Of a stretch of DNA of 46,618 nucleotides, positions 1-7,287 are shown piece by piece. Position 1 is the stretch's first letter. Each line of letters opens with the position of its first letter. The stretch is from a virus, in the IMG/VR virus record IMGVR_UViG_3300021440_000038, positions 1 to 46,618 of that record; one strand, written 5' to 3'. The notes below the pieces were generated by a model. It did no database searches. It saw nothing but the letters and a program-made list of their open reading frames with translations, and was not told the DNA's origin. A program made the position numbers and the translations under genes.

Positions 1-117
1 GACGGGGGGTTGACGCTTGCGCTTGCGGGGAAGGAAGAGAACGGCGAAGCACCCGCACGCCGCCACGCCGCCGACAAAGCCCAAGAACACGAAGCCTAGC
101 TCAGTGATGTCAGGCAT
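1..117 (-). CDS. Small membrane protein, amino-terminal part, open at left edge
   Basis: The first 39 codons of a gene that runs off the left edge. The ATG (115-117) lies seven bases after an AAAGGA ribosome site, and its first 8 bases overlap the stop of the gene at 110-460. Residues 7-29 form one hydrophobic segment, followed by a basic RKRKR stretch; a single-pass inner-membrane protein with a cytoplasmic carboxyl end is the simplest reading. The frame reaches base 1 exactly on a codon boundary. The open frame at the right edge (46618 to 46439) also starts on a codon boundary, and joined they give 98 residues. Function unknown. Confidence 0.72.
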   Translation of the reverse strand, partial: MPDITELGFVFLGFVGGVAACGCFAVLFLPRKRKRQPPV

Positions 118-460
118 CGGGGCATCCTTTCGGTCTATCGTCATTGCCGATCCCACGCAGCTGGTAGCCCAGCAGGAACAATACGCAGCACGCCGCGTGG
201 GCCATGTGTAGCAGGCCAGTTTCCCTGTCGCGGTCTTCGCCACGCCAGTAGGCCCACATGTGCCGCATGCACGCCGAGAAGCAACGGCTCCACAACATGC
301 CTTTTTCCCAGTTACGTGGGGCGTACTTCACTGCTCCGTAGTCCAGCACTTGCAGGATTGCTTCAAGCGCATCCGGGGGAAGCAGGTGCCACGGCAACTT
401 GCCCTCGTCTGCCTTGTACCCTTCCACGAGTTTGGTCTCGTCGGCTTTGTGAACGTGCAT
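110..460 (-). CDS. dATP/dGTP diphosphohydrolase-like protein
   Basis: A 116-residue protein resembling the phage family annotated as dATP/dGTP diphosphohydrolase, amino-terminal domain, a MazG-like all-alpha fold. Visible family signatures are the LPPDALEAILQVLDYGAVKY segment, then PRNWEKGM, and MRHMWAYWRGEDRDRETG followed by a His/Ala/Cys-rich helix (HMAHAACC). Members are thought to hydrolyse deoxynucleoside triphosphates and so reshape the nucleotide pool; that activity is inferred here. The ATG at 460 overlaps the stop of the upstream gene as TGATG, so it is translationally coupled. A TTG one codon earlier is a less likely start. The stop overlaps the next gene (start 117) by 8 bases. Confidence 0.8.
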   Translation of the reverse strand: MHVHKADETKLVEGYKADEGKLPWHLLPPDALEAILQVLDYGAVKYAPRNWEKGMLWSRCFSACMRHMWAYWRGEDRDRETGLLHMAHAACCVLFLLGYQLRGIGNDDRPKGCPDA

Positions 461-732
461 CAATCCATCCCCACTCTAACCGCCTTCACCGTCGAGCGCT
501 CCAGCTCGGCGATGCGCGCCTCCTGCTTCGCCGCAATCTCGGCCATGCGGTAGAGAGCCCAGTGCAGGCCGCGTGCACGCACGCCGATGGCAACTACGAT
601 GTCGCCGGAACGTGTGCTCGCGTCGGCGACTTGGCTGTCCAGCAGCTTGAGGAACGCCATCACTGCAGCAGGCGTCTGCACGCTGTCAGGTGAGATCGAG
701 TCGTCAGGCTTTTCTAGGGTGTCGTCAGTCAT
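460..732 (-). CDS. Hypothetical protein, 90 aa, first gene of its operon
   Basis: The start is the ATG at 730-732, which has AAGGAGA six bases upstream; a longer reading would begin inside the palindrome at 754-779 and is rejected. The amino third is acidic and Ser/Pro-rich. The rest is Ala-rich with a predicted helix at the carboxyl end (AAKQEARIAELE). No family was recognised. The codons around 590-603 read GDIVVA and contain the CATCGTAGTTGC block that also occurs in non-coding copies of the early repeat, so part of that repeat may overlap a coding region here. It heads a coupled operon with the genes at 110-460 and 1-117. Confidence 0.7.
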   Translation of the reverse strand: MTDDTLEKPDDSISPDSVQTPAAVMAFLKLLDSQVADASTRSGDIVVAIGVRARGLHWALYRMAEIAAKQEARIAELERSTVKAVRVGMD

Positions 733-1543: not shown

Positions 1544-1809
1544 CACTTTCCTTTTGTGATGAAAGCCAACGTCTCACCCTTGTGCTCGACGCGGAACGCC
1601 GTGTACGAGGGGAAGTTCTCAGGGACAACAGCCATGATGTCCTTGAACGCGGTCGAGATGCTAGGCACTTCGACACAGCGATTGGTTTGATCCCACGTGG
1701 GCATGGACCCTTGCGGATCGAAGCCAAGATGCCCCATGAGTTTCGTCAGGCGGGTTTCAATCCGCCTAACACGATCTTGTATTTCCCTGCTGCGCTCGTC
1801 GGTGCTCAT
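1543..1809 (-). CDS. Hypothetical protein, 88 aa
   Basis: The ATG at 1809 overlaps the stop of the gene at 1806-2675 (ATGA), with GGAGG nine bases upstream. The amino third is charged and helical (RSREIQDRVRRIETRLTKLM). The carboxyl half looks like a small beta fold (SYTAFRVEHKGETLAFI). No family was recognised. Its tight coupling to the helical protein at 1806-2675 suggests a linked function, but that is inference only. Confidence 0.68.
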   Translation of the reverse strand: MSTDERSREIQDRVRRIETRLTKLMGHLGFDPQGSMPTWDQTNRCVEVPSISTAFKDIMAVVPENFPSYTAFRVEHKGETLAFITKGK

Positions 1810-2675
1810 TCCTTCATTCCTCCAAAAGCCTTCATGTAGCCGCCCATCACATCCATGATGTTCTTGGCTTCCTCTGCCACGTACGCACGTGTCTCGGGTT
1901 CCTTGCGCAGCTGGCCCGGCGTGTAGCCGATCAGCTTCTCCTTGATCTCCTCGCCCATCTCGGCGAGACGCTTGTCGCCGAAGATGTTGAGATCGGGCAG
2001 CAGGTCCACGATCTCCTCAAGGTTGGTGACCGTGGTGTCGCGGAAGACCTGATCCTCCTTGCTCATGGTCTTCGTGTAGTGCTCCAGCTTCTCGGCCAGC
2101 CGCATCCACACATCGCCCAGTGCACGGTTGACGCGATCCTGCATCGCGTCCTCCATCGACTTGCGCACCTCCTCCTTCGCCTTGTCGCTCATCTGCACAC
2201 GGAAGTCGTTCGCCGTGGTGACAGCGTCGATGTCGAGAGCGACAGAGAACTTGCGCCGCAGCTGCTCGACCGAGGGGTAGTCGTTCTCGTTGAACAGCGT
2301 ACCCATGCGGAACTCGGCGCGCTGCCGCTCCTCCGCGTAGGTGGTGTTGACGAACTTGTCAGCCGCACCGTCGAACACGGAGACAAGGTTGTTGTGCTCC
2401 TCCATGAACTTGAAGTGGAGCTTGCGGGTCAGCAGACGGTCGCCGTTGTCCTTCCACGGCATCGTCTTGGTGTAGAGATGCGTGCGCACGGCAGTCGCTG
2501 CGGACACGATGTCCTTCAGCGCTTCCTTCGGGATGATGTGCTTGTTCACCCGAGCCGTGTCGGCCTCGGCGTTGGCCTGCGCGACAAGCGCCTGAGACGC
2601 AGCCTTGTCGTGGCGATACCCCAGCCACATGTTGATCCGCACGTTGACGATCATGCACTCGTTGACGATAGACAT
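1806..2675 (-). CDS. Helical protein, possible third partner of the MoxR/VWA pair
   Basis: A 289-residue, mostly helical, charged protein. Visible features include WLGYRHDKAA near the start, then TKTMPWKDNGDRLLTRK, the segment LFNENDYPSVEQLRRKF, and FRDTTVTNLEEIVDLLPDLN toward the end. From memory this pattern recalls the DUF3150-type proteins found beside CobS/MoxR-like ATPases and VWA proteins in phages and integrative elements. I could not verify that. The start is the ATG at 2675, with AAAGGA nine bases upstream. It lies in the same operon as the VWA protein (3822-4895), downstream of it, and could be a substrate or adaptor of that machine. Confidence 0.75.
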   Translation of the reverse strand: MSIVNECMIVNVRINMWLGYRHDKAASQALVAQANAEADTARVNKHIIPKEALKDIVSAATAVRTHLYTKTMPWKDNGDRLLTRKLHFKFMEEHNNLVSVFDGAADKFVNTTYAEERQRAEFRMGTLFNENDYPSVEQLRRKFSVALDIDAVTTANDFRVQMSDKAKEEVRKSMEDAMQDRVNRALGDVWMRLAEKLEHYTKTMSKEDQVFRDTTVTNLEEIVDLLPDLNIFGDKRLAEMGEEIKEKLIGYTPGQLRKEPETRAYVAEEAKNIMDVMGGYMKAFGGMKE

Positions 2676-2720
2676 AGCTCTGTTCCTTTCAGTTGGGTTG
2701 TCGTTCAGATGTTTCAGTTC

Positions 2721-3524
2721 TTACCTTTTAGCCCAGCCATACTGGGCGTCACGCTTCTTCCAATTCTGGTAGTCAGTGTAGCCTTGGAATGGACCTCGGT
2801 TGACCACTGCCACGCACTCGGGGTGCTTCTTGTAGACAGCATCCTTCACCCAGTTCAGCGTGCAGTGATACGCGAGGACGCTCCAGTTCTCCCGCTCCCC
2901 CAGCATCTCGACTACCATGTCGCGGTCGATGTTGTTGGGGCGATGCGCCGGGTTCTTGCGGCTCTTGTAGCCGTGGTTGGGTTCGCCGTGGATGGCGATG
3001 TGCATCTTGCGCCACACTGCGAAGTCTTCGACGCCGTACCTCTTGCGCAGCTCCTTCATCACCTTGGGCTTCGCTGCGTAGGCCAGCATCGGCAGCGGGT
3101 TGATCAGCACAGGTGCTTCCCCTGTCAGGTCGAACGTGGCCACATCGCCCTCCACCAGCCAGCCCTGACGATCAGCCCAGCCCTGCCCGATCCACGCCAC
3201 GGTTGGCAGGTAGCTGTTGCTCTCGGCAGCAAAGCCTGCAGTGCCTAGCACCTCGTAGATGAAGTTGTTGGTCGAGCGTGACGGGTAGCGGCAGTCCACA
3301 TCCACCTGCCCATCGCAGTGGAAGATCACTACGTCGGTGCTGTGGTAGCGACAGCGGATGGCGTCGTTGTGATCCTTGCGGATGCCTACCCACTTCTTCT
3401 TGCCGTCGAGCTGGCGGTCGTTGGACACGTGCGACTGCCGATGCTCCTTGGCGTTGCGCCACATCCGCGCAGCCTCGTCGTAGTTGTTGATGCGGATGTC
3501 TTCACTGGCACGATATGCAAACAT
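2721..3524 (-). CDS. Hypothetical protein, 267 aa
   Basis: An unrecognised protein with ordinary soluble composition, rich in aromatic and basic residues (KKKWVGIRKDHNDAIRCRYH, KSRKNPAHRPNN, NWKKRDAQYGWAKR at the end). The ATG at 3524 follows AAAGGACTCCAAC. There is no membrane segment and no obvious catalytic triad. The middle carries His/Cys pairs (IFHCDGQVDVDC) that could bind metal, but no standard finger spacing is seen. It lies between the small gene at 3537-3812 and the helical protein at 1806-2675, so it is part of the MoxR/VWA operon. Confidence 0.72.
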   Translation of the reverse strand: MFAYRASEDIRINNYDEAARMWRNAKEHRQSHVSNDRQLDGKKKWVGIRKDHNDAIRCRYHSTDVVIFHCDGQVDVDCRYPSRSTNNFIYEVLGTAGFAAESNSYLPTVAWIGQGWADRQGWLVEGDVATFDLTGEAPVLINPLPMLAYAAKPKVMKELRKRYGVEDFAVWRKMHIAIHGEPNHGYKSRKNPAHRPNNIDRDMVVEMLGERENWSVLAYHCTLNWVKDAVYKKHPECVAVVNRGPFQGYTDYQNWKKRDAQYGWAKR

Positions 3525-3536
3525 GTTGGAGTCCTT

Positions 3537-3812
3537 TCATAGGTTGATTGTTGCAGACATGATCGCTGCGTCGAGGGTCGGGAAATTCTTCGCAGCTGCC
3601 GTAGGCACGTAGAAGGTTTCCCAGTCTTCATTGAGCGTCACCTCAAACAGGTCGAGCTGCACGTAGTGCTTGGGCGACAGCTTGTAGATGACGAAGCGTG
3701 AGCCCATCGGGCGGTTGCGGTACACGTCGCCGAACGATGGGTAGTTCATCCGTTTCCAGATGGGCGTGGGGTCCGATGGTCCTGACCCCAAGTAGGCAAT
3801 CACGTGGTACAT
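3537..3812 (-). CDS. Hypothetical protein, 91 aa
   Basis: The ATG at 3812 has AGGAGGACAC directly upstream, one of the strongest ribosome sites of the early arm. The protein is small and mixed alpha/beta, with aromatic residues (YPSFGDVYRNRPMGSRFVIY) and a short helical end. Not recognised. It is nine bases downstream of the VWA gene, so the two are very probably made together. Confidence 0.7.
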   Translation of the reverse strand: MYHVIAYLGSGPSDPTPIWKRMNYPSFGDVYRNRPMGSRFVIYKLSPKHYVQLDLFEVTLNEDWETFYVPTAAAKNFPTLDAAIMSATINL

Positions 3813-3821
3813 GTGTCCTCC

Positions 3822-4895
3822 TCAGTTGATGCGAATAACGTCTCCAACAGGGCAGTGCGCATTGGTCGTGCACACCACGATCAGCGGGAACGGCGGCTCT
3901 TGCGTCGGCCACGGCGTGTAGCCGTCAGTGATCATCACAACCACCTGCGGGTCGAACTGCTCAGCATACTCCAGAGGCACGCGCATGTCAGTACCGCCAC
4001 CGCCTGCGGGCCTGAACTGCAACTCCTCGCCTTCCTCGAACACCTGCTCCTCGACCTGCGTGTCGGTCCACAGGATGCGGATGCGCTCGGGCTTCACCTC
4101 CACGGCGATGGCATTCATCTCGGTGGCCACCTTGTTGGTCGTGCCGATCATGGAGCCCGACGTGTCGCCGATCATGATCATCTCGCCCATGCCCTTGCTG
4201 TGGCGCGAAGGCAGGTAGATGTCACGGAAGCGACGGTTGCGACGGGACCACGTTTCCTCGCTGCGCACCACGCGTGTGAGGTACTGGCGCAGCGCCTCCT
4301 GCCATGCGACCTGCGGCGTCAGCAGCCTGTCCACCAGCAGCTGCAGCTCGGCAGGCATGCGCCCCTGCAGCTTGGCGAGCGTGGCCGCCTGTGCAACACG
4401 CGCGGCGATCTCCTGTGTCAGCGCAGCATCGGCAGCCTCGTCGCCACCAGTGCCGGGGTCGAGCAGATCGTCCATCGGCTTGGGCATCTGCGGCGGCGGG
4501 TTGTTCATGAGATGAGCGTAGGCTTCTTCGGAAGTCATCTTGCCCAGCTCGTCGTTGAACAGACCGCACGCTGGCAGCACGAGCTTGGACTGCTGCAGGA
4601 TGTAGTTGATCACGTAGTCGGTGGCGACGTTCCACGCGTCGTGGTTCCGCGTGCCGAGACGCAGCATGTGCTTGAACATGTCGTGCGCACCCTCGTGGGC
4701 ACGCAAGCCCATGATCTCTTCGATGCTCAGCGTGTCGAGGAAGTCGGGGTTGTAGAAGTGCATGCGCCCGTTGGTCGCCGCCGTGGCTACGTCACGCGTG
4801 AACACGTAGGGCACCGTCACCACCAGCGTCGAGAAGAACGGGTGGTACAGCATGAGCCGCGTCGTGGCCGTCGAGAACTTTTCCTTGTAGTGCAT
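3822..4895 (-). CDS. VWA protein with metallopeptidase-like domain (DUF2201 type)
   Basis: A 357-residue, two-part protein. Residues 55-135 hold a metallopeptidase-like domain with H67-E68-G-A-H71 followed by a helical core (HDMFKHMLR, then WNVATDYVINYIL), as in the DUF2201 family. The carboxyl half (about 235-357) is a von Willebrand A domain. It has a complete MIDAS start, D244-T-S246-G-S248, and a later T-D324-G. Such proteins act with MoxR-family AAA+ ATPases as chaperone or remodelling machines, and the MoxR-like gene lies directly upstream (4953-6083). Proteolysis is not proven; the zinc site may be structural. The ATG at 4895 has AAGGAGACAGAG before it, and the palindrome at 4918-4945 sits just upstream. 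Confidence 0.85.
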   Translation of the reverse strand: MHYKEKFSTATTRLMLYHPFFSTLVVTVPYVFTRDVATAATNGRMHFYNPDFLDTLSIEEIMGLRAHEGAHDMFKHMLRLGTRNHDAWNVATDYVINYILQQSKLVLPACGLFNDELGKMTSEEAYAHLMNNPPPQMPKPMDDLLDPGTGGDEAADAALTQEIAARVAQAATLAKLQGRMPAELQLLVDRLLTPQVAWQEALRQYLTRVVRSEETWSRRNRRFRDIYLPSRHSKGMGEMIMIGDTSGSMIGTTNKVATEMNAIAVEVKPERIRILWTDTQVEEQVFEEGEELQFRPAGGGGTDMRVPLEYAEQFDPQVVVMITDGYTPWPTQEPPFPLIVVCTTNAHCPVGDVIRIN

Positions 4896-4917
4896 CTCTG
4901 TCTCCTTCAGGTGATTG

Positions 4918-4945
4918 GCCGTTGGGACACCAATGTCCCAACGGC
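4918..4945. repeat. Early palindrome copy 2 (operon head)
   Basis: GCCGTTGGGACA, CCAA, TGTCCCAACGGC: 12-bp arms with a four-base centre, the longest arms of the family. It lies 22 bases before the VWA gene and just after the stop of the AAA+ gene. It therefore separates two genes that should work together and may set their relative expression. Confidence 0.85.
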
Positions 4946-4952
4946 ATGAGTG

Positions 4953-6083
4953 TTAGATGCTGCGGCTGTAGTTCTTGGAGAAGTCGAGGTACGCGTTGGT
5001 CTGCTCCAACGTCTCGTCGCGCTTGGACGCCATGATCCAGCCGAGCATACAGAACTCGCGGTCCAGCCGCTTGTAGTAGGTGTGGATGATGTCGGCGTTC
5101 TTCTGCGTCATGTCGCCCGACAGGCCCACGGTCACAGCGAACATCACGTCGCGCGCCTCGGGCACCGGAGCCTTGGTCGGGTCCTTCATGATGGCCGGGA
5201 TCAGCTTGGACAGCTGGTCGTACGCCTTCTCGAATGCCCAGAACTTGGCTGCCGTCGCATCGCCGATGGTGCCAGCGATGAGCACGTGCTTGGTCGCCAG
5301 CGGGATGTCCGGGTTGTCGTAGATACGCAGCGCCTTCTCCCACGTGCGCGGAGTGGCGAACGCCTTCTCGCTCGTGACCTTCATCGCGCCGCCGTCGCCA
5401 TCAGGCACCATGAAGGTGGACAGCTGGTCCTTGCAGAACTGCAGGAACATCGGACCCATGCGATGCAGGCCCTTCTTCTGCGCATAGACGCAGAACTCGT
5501 CCACACTGGTGATCACCTCCACATGCGTGAAGCGATTGTTGAGCGGTACAGGCATTCGCCGCGAGATGCCCTTGTCGCCTTCGCGGTTCGACATCGCCAC
5601 GATGCGCACGTTGGGCATGAGCACGTGCTCGCCGACGCGACCCTCGTTGACGAGCTGATAGGCGACCGACATCACGCTCTCCTGCCCATGCGTGAACTCG
5701 TCGAGCGACAGAATAATGATGTGATCCGGGTCGCTGTTGAAGTTCGGGTTGCCGATGAACGGCAACGTGGCCGGAAGGTTCCACACCGTCATGCGGTTCT
5801 CGGTGTCGGGCAGGCCGCGCAGGTCCACGCTCTCGTACTGGGCGAGGCGGATGTCGCACAATGTAGCGCCGGGGCGCTTTGTCCTCGGCTTGATGTTCTT
5901 GGGAGCCCCGGCTTTCGCCGGGACTGCCGCCTCGATCTCGCGCGTGTCCAGCTCGGCGACGAGCTGCGCGATGGCCTGTGTCTTGCCAACACCGGGCTCG
6001 CCCCAGCCGAACTGGGGCTCACGCATGACGACCGCGCCCCAATAGACCGCGTCCTTGAAGCCCTGAATGGTTACTTGCTGCAT
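4953..6083 (-). CDS. MoxR/CobS-like AAA+ ATPase
   Basis: A 376-residue AAA+ ATPase of the MoxR/CobS type. Walker A is G28-E-P-G-V-G-K34-T35, Walker B is ILSLD128-E129, sensor 1 is VAMSN166, and the arginine finger candidate is R184 in NNRF. The SVDLRGLP segment (85-92) between the Walker motifs is typical of the family. The carboxyl third is helical. Known relatives couple ATP hydrolysis to remodelling of partner proteins through VWA adaptors, and the next gene downstream is such a VWA protein. The chosen start (ATG 6083) has AAAGGACAAGACA before it; an earlier in-frame start at 6128 lacks a good site. Target unknown. Confidence 0.88.
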   Translation of the reverse strand: MQQVTIQGFKDAVYWGAVVMREPQFGWGEPGVGKTQAIAQLVAELDTREIEAAVPAKAGAPKNIKPRTKRPGATLCDIRLAQYESVDLRGLPDTENRMTVWNLPATLPFIGNPNFNSDPDHIIILSLDEFTHGQESVMSVAYQLVNEGRVGEHVLMPNVRIVAMSNREGDKGISRRMPVPLNNRFTHVEVITSVDEFCVYAQKKGLHRMGPMFLQFCKDQLSTFMVPDGDGGAMKVTSEKAFATPRTWEKALRIYDNPDIPLATKHVLIAGTIGDATAAKFWAFEKAYDQLSKLIPAIMKDPTKAPVPEARDVMFAVTVGLSGDMTQKNADIIHTYYKRLDREFCMLGWIMASKRDETLEQTNAYLDFSKNYSRSI

Positions 6084-6648: not shown

Positions 6649-7287
6649 TCAGTAGAGCGAGCCGTCCTCGGTGAACTCGACTTCGGCATAGCCGATGCTC
6701 TCGTCCACGCATTCGTCCGAGAGCAGGTAGTCGTGCTCCTGCTCCAGCTTGGCGTAAATCCAGTCCATGATGTCCCGCATCAATTCACTGATGGCCTCAG
6801 TTACATCCTCGCTCACATCATAGAGACCGTCTTCATAGACTTCGATCTCCACGCTGCGCGAGTGGCAGTACATGTCCATGTGGCGCATCTGTGCCGACAG
6901 CTTGTAGAAGTGACGACGCTGCAAATCCTGCAGCTCACTCGCGATACGGTGCAGCTCCTCCTCTTTGGGTGCGGCTGCCTTCACTGCCTTGAGCGCGCCC
7001 TTGGCGTAGCTGTAGCTACCCTCAAAGCACGCACCATCACCTTGGGAGCTGAACCCGCTGAAGCGGATGTCAGGCCCCTTGCGCCGCATCTTGCCGTCCA
7101 TGCATTTGACGTAGTCGTCCGACGTGATGCCAATAGCCTTGAACACCTCGTCAGCCCACTCGTAGATGTACTCCCACCAGCTGTCGTACAGCGCAGCCTC
7201 GCGCCACTTGTTACGTGCCTTCTCCTTGGCCGCATCGCTCAGCTCGCTGAACTTGTAGACCGTCGTGGTCACTGTATCTTCACGCAT
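6649..7287 (-). CDS. Conserved phage protein, 212 aa (SGF-QGDGACF family)
   Basis: The protein carries the hallmark FSGFSSQGDGACFEGSY around residue 80, preceded by YKFSELSDAAKEKARNKWRE and followed by helices. This combination is familiar from conserved hypothetical proteins in many phages, whose function is unknown. The start is the ATG at 7287, which has GGGAGGGACGAAAG upstream; a longer version from 7335 lacks a site. Its start overlaps the stop of the gene at 7280-7687 by 8 bases. Composition is acidic at the carboxyl end (EVEFTEDGSLY). Confidence 0.8.
   Translation of the reverse strand: MREDTVTTTVYKFSELSDAAKEKARNKWREAALYDSWWEYIYEWADEVFKAIGITSDDYVKCMDGKMRRKGPDIRFSGFSSQGDGACFEGSYSYAKGALKAVKAAAPKEEELHRIASELQDLQRRHFYKLSAQMRHMDMYCHSRSVEIEVYEDGLYDVSEDVTEAISELMRDIMDWIYAKLEQEHDYLLSDECVDESIGYAEVEFTEDGSLY

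Follow-up and report, generated by a model that had tools for sequence, protein, structure and literature searches.

The virus record IMGVR_UViG_3300021440_000038 in IMG/VR is a linear sequence of 46,618 b, and the window analysed here is the entire record. Its left part is a minus-strand run of tightly packed or overlapping genes, which includes a trio coding for an AAA+ ATPase, a DUF2201 protein with a metal-motif domain and a von Willebrand factor A (VWA) domain, and a DUF3150-like protein. The structural genes (terminase, connector, capsid, fibre and holin) are on the plus strand, opposite to the trio. The order of transcription is AAA+ ATPase (4953-6083), DUF2201 metal-motif/VWA protein (3822-4895), two open reading frames (ORFs) at 3537-3812 and 2721-3524, and the 289-amino-acid (aa) protein (1806-2675). 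The sequence-only reading of this DNA had described positions 1806-6083 as a cassette of a MoxR ATPase, a VWA/metallopeptidase and a helical protein. Its three ORFs are present at these coordinates, all on the minus strand, and the three genes are linked, but the cassette also contains the two other ORFs, which are unrelated to them. The trio and its motifs are as follows.

4953-6083, minus strand: AAA+ ATPase (MoxR/NorQ/midasin-like), 376 aa from the ATG; phrog_1297 'ATPase', E 2.3e-63
5979-6002, minus strand: Walker A GEPGVGKT (aa 28-35); P30, G31, G33 and K34 invariant in 8 diverse phages
5697-5702, minus strand: Walker B D128 E129; D in 134/134 homologues, second acid E in 76/134 and D in 57/134
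5586-5588, minus strand: sensor 1 Asn166; 134/134 homologues
5532-5534, minus strand: putative arginine finger Arg184; 132/134 homologues
5346-5348, minus strand: putative sensor 2 Arg246; 134/134 homologues
3822-4895, minus strand: DUF2201 protein, 357 aa, with an N-terminal zincin-like metal-motif domain and a C-terminal VWA domain; Pfam, phrog_1314 (7.9e-83) and AlphaFold2 (AF2) model (pLDDT 88.8)
4683-4697, minus strand: HEGAH metal motif (aa 67-71); H67 and H71 in 159/160 homologues, E68 in 149/160
4605-4631, minus strand: second metal motif NVATDYVIN (aa 89-97); N89, A91, D93, I96 and N97 each in 159/160
4152-4166, minus strand: MIDAS DTSGS (aa 244-248); D244, S246 and S248 in 160/160, T302 in 159/160 and D324 in 159/160
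1806-2675, minus strand: DUF3150-like protein, 289 aa, mostly helical; family hidden Markov model (HMM), hhalign and fold match

An AGGA-like Shine-Dalgarno sequence precedes the ATG of the AAA+ gene. For a profile built from eight phage AAA homologues, the best solved relative is midasin (7e-33) and CbbQ/NorQ are also listed, with ClpB/ClpC/RFC far behind midasin at about 1e-6 to 1e-9. Among eight members of the family searched against Pfam, AAA_5 is found in 7/8, AAA in 6/8 and AAA_3 in 3/8; the window protein itself is below every Pfam cut-off. The Walker A Lys, Walker B Asp, sensor-1 Asn, arginine finger and sensor-2 Arg are each retained in 132-134 of the 134 homologues. The Walker A/B and sensor 1 motifs noticed earlier are thus conserved across the family, the phrog_1297 match agrees with them, and the product is a midasin/NorQ-like AAA+ ATPase.

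The VWA gene follows after a gap of 57 bp. Its product matches Pfam DUF2201_N (8.7e-35, 121.1 bits, cut-off 23.2) and DUF2201 (6.3e-18, 65.5 bits, cut-off 26.4), which answers the proposed profile check against DUF2201 with scores above both curated cut-offs, and the VWA fold of the AF2 model matches MDN1 MIDAS and NorD. The HEGAH motif and the complete MIDAS recognized in the sequence-only reading are both intact and near-invariant: H67, H71, H76, R79, N89, A91, D93, I96, N97 and the five MIDAS positions are each present in at least 159 of 160 homologues, H76 and D93 being further metal ligands predicted from the sequence. The window protein retains the HExxH Glu68, but 11 of the 160 DUF2201 homologues (L025, L107, L122, L139, L140, L143, L145, L147, L154, L161 and L172) have Thr, Leu, Ser or Lys in its place; the metal ligands and MIDAS stay in all of these except L172, in which only the MIDAS and H76 are left. 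Because the metal ligands are near-invariant while the Glu is sometimes replaced, metal binding is more constrained than peptidase chemistry. The zinc metallopeptidase motif of the window protein is complete and the protein may be an active peptidase, an activity predicted from the motif. The phrog_1314 label 'HNH endonuclease', carried by many phage records, was rejected, since Pfam gives DUF2201_N and DUF2201 but no HNH and the AF2 model consists of a metal-motif domain and a VWA domain; this common PHROG name is wrong for the DUF2201 metal-motif/VWA family.

The product of 1806-2675 matches no Pfam family and has no match to PF11348 (DUF3150) at E ≤ 1, and the Pfam DUF3150 model also has no match in a search of the window and seven phages. 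It is homologous to a protein of Synechococcus phage MinM2 annotated as DUF3150 (E 8e-16, 28% identity over the full length), whose gene sits between the MoxR and VWA genes of that phage. An HMM from the window and MinM2 sequences identifies a gene of ~285 aa adjoining AAA and VWA genes in 57 of 90 loci, with no borderline matches in the rest, and the motifs of this DUF3150-like family include T-L-P-W, D-Y-P and D-F-R-V. Weak Pfam DUF3150 matches are seen in 15 of 44 family members, and cellular members in Paraflavitalea and Peteryoungia exceed the curated Pfam DUF3150 cut-off. Moreover, the hhalign comparison of the family with eleven canonical DUF3150 proteins gives 96.9% probability (E 1.4e-10) and is collinear over 227 columns from the N terminus. 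The AF2 model of the protein (pLDDT 90.8) matches a viral 'DUF3150 domain-containing' model in BFVD (TM score 0.85); a fold search of the PDB gave no match at E ≤ 0.001, and a second PDB comparison gave helix-bundle-level similarities only, which are undiagnostic. The model begins with a beta element, so the protein is not purely helical. It is DUF3150-like, a distant homologue which is itself under the Pfam threshold and hence not a Pfam member; the suggested check against the DUF3150 family therefore yields no direct Pfam match but profile-profile and fold similarity. Our literature search found no paper mentioning DUF3150. A 'mid' family of ~220-240 aa ('V-R-M' near the N terminus) also adjoins AAA/VWA in 119 loci (e.g. 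L020:9118-9795 and L055:1939-2598); its gene follows VWA in marine phages that have the trio and separates AAA from VWA in loci that lack DUF3150. The idea that this ~220-aa protein substitutes for DUF3150 in the same slot was rejected, for hhalign gives 1% and the two co-occur in about a hundred marine phage loci.

To see whether the three genes travel as a unit, loci were anchored on single members. Among viral loci anchored on DUF3150, AAA and VWA are both present in 53 of 53 untruncated loci, which mostly belong to one marine clade and are not independent. When viral loci are anchored on VWA, AAA is present in 45 of the 46 untruncated loci and DUF3150 as well in 29. All three genes are found in 45 of 59 cellular loci, and complete trios lie on a single strand throughout (29/29 viral and 45/45 cellular), most phage loci having the gene order AAA-DUF3150-VWA. 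The canonical DUF3150 genes of 10 genomes are likewise mostly next to AAA and/or NorD/CobT-like VWA genes. The distance matrices of the three proteins agree closely (r 0.92-0.94, against a permutation maximum of 0.10), so the three proteins travel together. Single-protein scans of viral contigs with the helical and with the VWA protein gave nothing, and a nucleotide search of phages with the cassette as query gave no match.

Of the eight closest relatives with a trio, seven share the capsid protein at 77-83% and are mostly 62-66 kb. A family A DNA polymerase (PolA) is present in all eight; several have it 2-6 kb past the trio in the downstream direction, encoded on the strand of the trio. The sister phage L023 has the gene series AAA-VWA-DUF3150-like-PolA-exonuclease-methylase-exonuclease-nuclease-helicase. 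The window stops 1.8 kb beyond the DUF3150-like gene, just before the expected PolA site. The record is thus a fragment ending before PolA, which explains why replication genes are absent from the window, and the earlier remark that this virulent-looking phage has no visible replication genes is an artefact of truncation. On plasmids and chromosomes, the trio is located upstream of VirB11/VirB4/TraD/TraI genes of type IV secretion systems (T4SS) in 14 Burkholderiales loci and plasmids pBVIE02 and pIII, beside PRTRC ThiF or B in 7 Acidobacteria loci and beside PRTRC-type ParB in 5 Chitinophagaceae loci. Plasmid pCAR1 bears AAA-DUF3150-NorD-like VWA near RecT, an exonuclease and MobH, and its cluster ORF100-103 is reported to be conserved in R478, Rts1, SXT and R391 (PMC2642839). 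In a tree of 92 trio loci the virus and cell labels switch at least 6 times, so the trio has moved between viruses and cells. Because it is common to phages, conjugative plasmids and chromosomal loci that carry plasmid-type genes, its possible functions are narrowed to a need that these share, which argues against a role in virions only.

We propose, at about even confidence, that the cassette is an ATP-driven protein-remodelling machine of the MoxR/VWA type, which in this phage group is part of the replication operon and in conjugative elements belongs to the maintenance and transfer regions, with a target tied to the establishment of DNA. The AAA+ subunit would form a midasin/NorQ-like ring, as its homology suggests, and the VWA subunit, whose MIDAS residues are conserved, would dock on the ring and grip the target through the MIDAS metal. 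The N-terminal metal-motif domain may bind the target and perhaps clip it where the HExxH Glu is kept. The DUF3150-like protein, which accompanies the pair in many lineages though not in every one, would be an accessory adaptor. The neighbourhoods point to a target on DNA or on the replication or partition machinery during the establishment of the incoming element rather than to a virion protein: the presence of T4SS or PRTRC genes beside the trio on plasmids and chromosomes, and of PolA and exonucleases directly downstream of it in sister phages, speaks against a role confined to virion assembly and in favour of DNA establishment or replication. Of the roles suggested by the sequence-only reading, it is DNA handling that the gene context favours.

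Several observations weigh against this proposal and against the trio as an obligate unit. Of the 46 untruncated viral loci anchored on VWA, 16 have no DUF3150. Two of three near-complete relatives, of more than 60 kb and picked by capsid alone, also lack it, and the pair occurs without it in Bacillus phage G, Thermus phiFa and the N4-like phages examined. Since the pair is found without DUF3150 even within the lineage of the window phage, the third protein is accessory and the trio is not obligate. The chromosomal neighbourhoods were covered to 8 kb, and some may be prophages. Furthermore, gene neighbourhood is weak functional evidence, early operons being gene-dense. The dependence is one-sided: the DUF3150-like gene goes with the pair, and the pair is often without DUF3150. 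The helical protein, earlier taken to be perhaps the usual third member, is therefore a relative of DUF3150 and a frequent partner, but 'usual' overstates its presence beside the pair.

A role in virion assembly, in which the machine would fold or proteolytically process structural proteins, has been proposed for the jumbo-phage pair of MoxR and metallopeptidase-vWA by analogy with the MoxR-vWA of Acidianus two-tailed virus (Iyer et al. 2021, PMC7824862). We consider it unlikely here, because the trio is also found on conjugative plasmids beside T4SS and on chromosomes beside PRTRC genes, and in this phage group it is in the replication operon on the strand opposite to the structural genes; the N4 homologues, moreover, are middle genes. 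The plasmid and replication-operon settings thus speak against virion assembly, at least as a general function. Another possibility is that the trio, in the manner of NorQ-NorD or CobS-CobT, is a chaperone for metal insertion or cofactor maturation and works on a metalloenzyme encoded by the phage or its host. The solved AAA relatives include NorQ and CbbQ, the VWA fold matches that of NorD, NorQD remodels NorD to insert metal (PMC13036017) and the pCAR1 trio has a NorD-like VWA; however, no metalloenzyme that could be the target accompanies the trio consistently across phages, plasmids and chromosomes, and this explanation is very improbable.

Host takeover or counter-defence, with the ring and gripper removing, unfolding or cleaving a host protein, possibly a defence factor, would fit the early-type location of the trio, the retention of HExxH in 149/160 homologues and the occurrence of the trio in phages, on conjugative plasmids and in chromosomal loci that contain plasmid-type genes, since these all face host defences on entry. 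PADLOC found no match, however, and the VWA gene has no variable effector domain. Identities among the sister phages are 33-47% for the trio and 44-48% for PolA, a divergence only slightly above that of PolA, so there is no arms-race signature and the idea of fast evolution was dropped as unremarkable. The replacement of the HExxH Glu in 11/160 homologues with the metal ligands kept also indicates that proteolysis is not universally required. Counter-defence, raised in the sequence-only reading, is thus without direct support, and the host-directed explanation as a whole seems rather doubtful to us. A further reading makes the trio a general establishment machine of mobile elements, common to tailed phages and conjugative elements, whose midasin-like ring and MIDAS gripper would recognise a modified or ubiquitin-like-tagged protein and pull it off newly entered DNA; on conjugative elements the tag would come from the linked PRTRC cassette, including the E1-like ThiF. 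This reading is very improbable.

Other features of the cassette and its surroundings are listed below.

2721-3524, minus strand: intervening ORF, 267 aa; its single homologue is weak (tblastn E 8e-10) and comes from relative L010, where it lies upstream of the pair; no Pfam family above cut-off
3537-3812, minus strand: intervening ORF, 91 aa; Pfam and PHROG searched, homologue not found among the fetched loci
4922-4941, unstranded: 20-bp palindrome TTGGGACA-N4-TGTCCCAA between the AAA and VWA genes, one of 12 in the window
6649-7335, minus strand: neighbour, phrog_5162-like (1.6e-37); homologues near the trio in 12 other viral and 6 distinct cellular loci

The phrog_5162-like neighbour is a possible fourth component. 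The palindrome has 12 copies in the window, ten of them exact, where 0 are expected; the 20-bp copies start at 757, 4922, 6589, 8614, 9449, 9936, 10282, 10494, 11159, 11932, 11984 and 13366. All are in the early half, several just 5' of start codons, including that of the VWA gene. Among the other loci searched, only L001, which duplicates the window, contains the palindrome. It looks like an operator or a 5'-untranslated-region hairpin of an early regulon. Elsewhere in the window there are a GIY-YIG-type homing endonuclease (13592-14134, plus strand) and a protein matching dATP/dGTP pyrophosphohydrolase families (110-463, minus strand).

In relative G689, the VWA ORF (L345:11643-13685, minus strand) has 680 aa and is interrupted in the invariant NxAxD metal motif by a 303-aa stretch that starts with Cys, contains TADH and ends with His-Asn before Cys. 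The gene is uninterrupted in the 99%-identical twin G690 (L346:2807-3940, plus strand), 375/377 positions being identical outside the insertion. The insertion is intein-like and bears the intein signature; because a sequence search of the PDB with the segment gave no match, the call is based on the motifs at its two ends and on its being present in one twin and absent from the other. The site at which an intein sits is usually the best-conserved one of its host protein, and the position of this insertion thus agrees with a functionally important metal motif. An identical 207-aa gene, HNH-like by eye and of homing type, is located between AAA and VWA in both twins (L345:13727-14350, minus strand; L346:2142-2765, plus strand), and this endonuclease may serve to mobilise the intein. 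The PolA matches in four relatives are also split inside long ORFs of about 920-1035 aa (G678:C1:31626-33758, G680:C1:1531-3507, G682:C1:42022-44145 and G691:C1:43546-45963), which suggests inteins in PolA of the window phage's relatives too.

The AAA-VWA pair was already known in phages, in jumbo phages of group 2.2 (Iyer et al. 2021, PMC7824862) and as gp24/gp25 of N4, which are middle-transcribed core genes (PMC4193335), and the plasmid trio had been recorded as genes without function. Our literature search turned up no account of a three-gene form that includes DUF2201; what is new is this DUF2201-type trio and its presence in phages, on plasmids and on chromosomes alike. Among phages the MoxR-VWA pair is common and conserved, being seen in hundreds of phage records and core in N4-like phages. 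The jumbo-phage and N4 pairs share with the window the AAA+ ATPase beside a DUF2201-type metallopeptidase with a C-terminal VWA, in the same PHROG families, whereas the window has a DUF3150-like third gene, belongs to another phage group and has replication-type neighbours rather than those of virion assembly. ORF101-103 of the IncP-7 plasmid pCAR1 (PMC2642839) are similarly three genes on a mobile element, with the AAA-DUF3150-VWA order of most phage loci, but their VWA is NorD-like and not of the DUF2201 metal-motif type, and their DUF3150 is only distantly similar (profile-profile E 1.4e-10). NorQ-NorD, CbbQ-CbbO and RavA-ViaA also combine an AAA+ ring ATPase with a VWA adaptor; they are without DUF2201_N and their cellular targets are known (nitric oxide reductase, rubisco and respiratory enzymes). 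Midasin (Rea1/Mdn1) provides both the nearest solved AAA relative (7e-33) and the nearest solved VWA fold (MDN1 MIDAS), but it is a single giant eukaryotic protein acting on pre-ribosomes. Finally, the VMAP-type MoxR-vWA 'ternary' conflict systems (Kaur et al. 2020, PMC7159879) likewise join MoxR and vWA with a third, partly helical protein, whereas the window VWA protein has no C-terminal effector (the DUF2201 match reaches aa 356 of 357) and its third partner is DUF3150-like.

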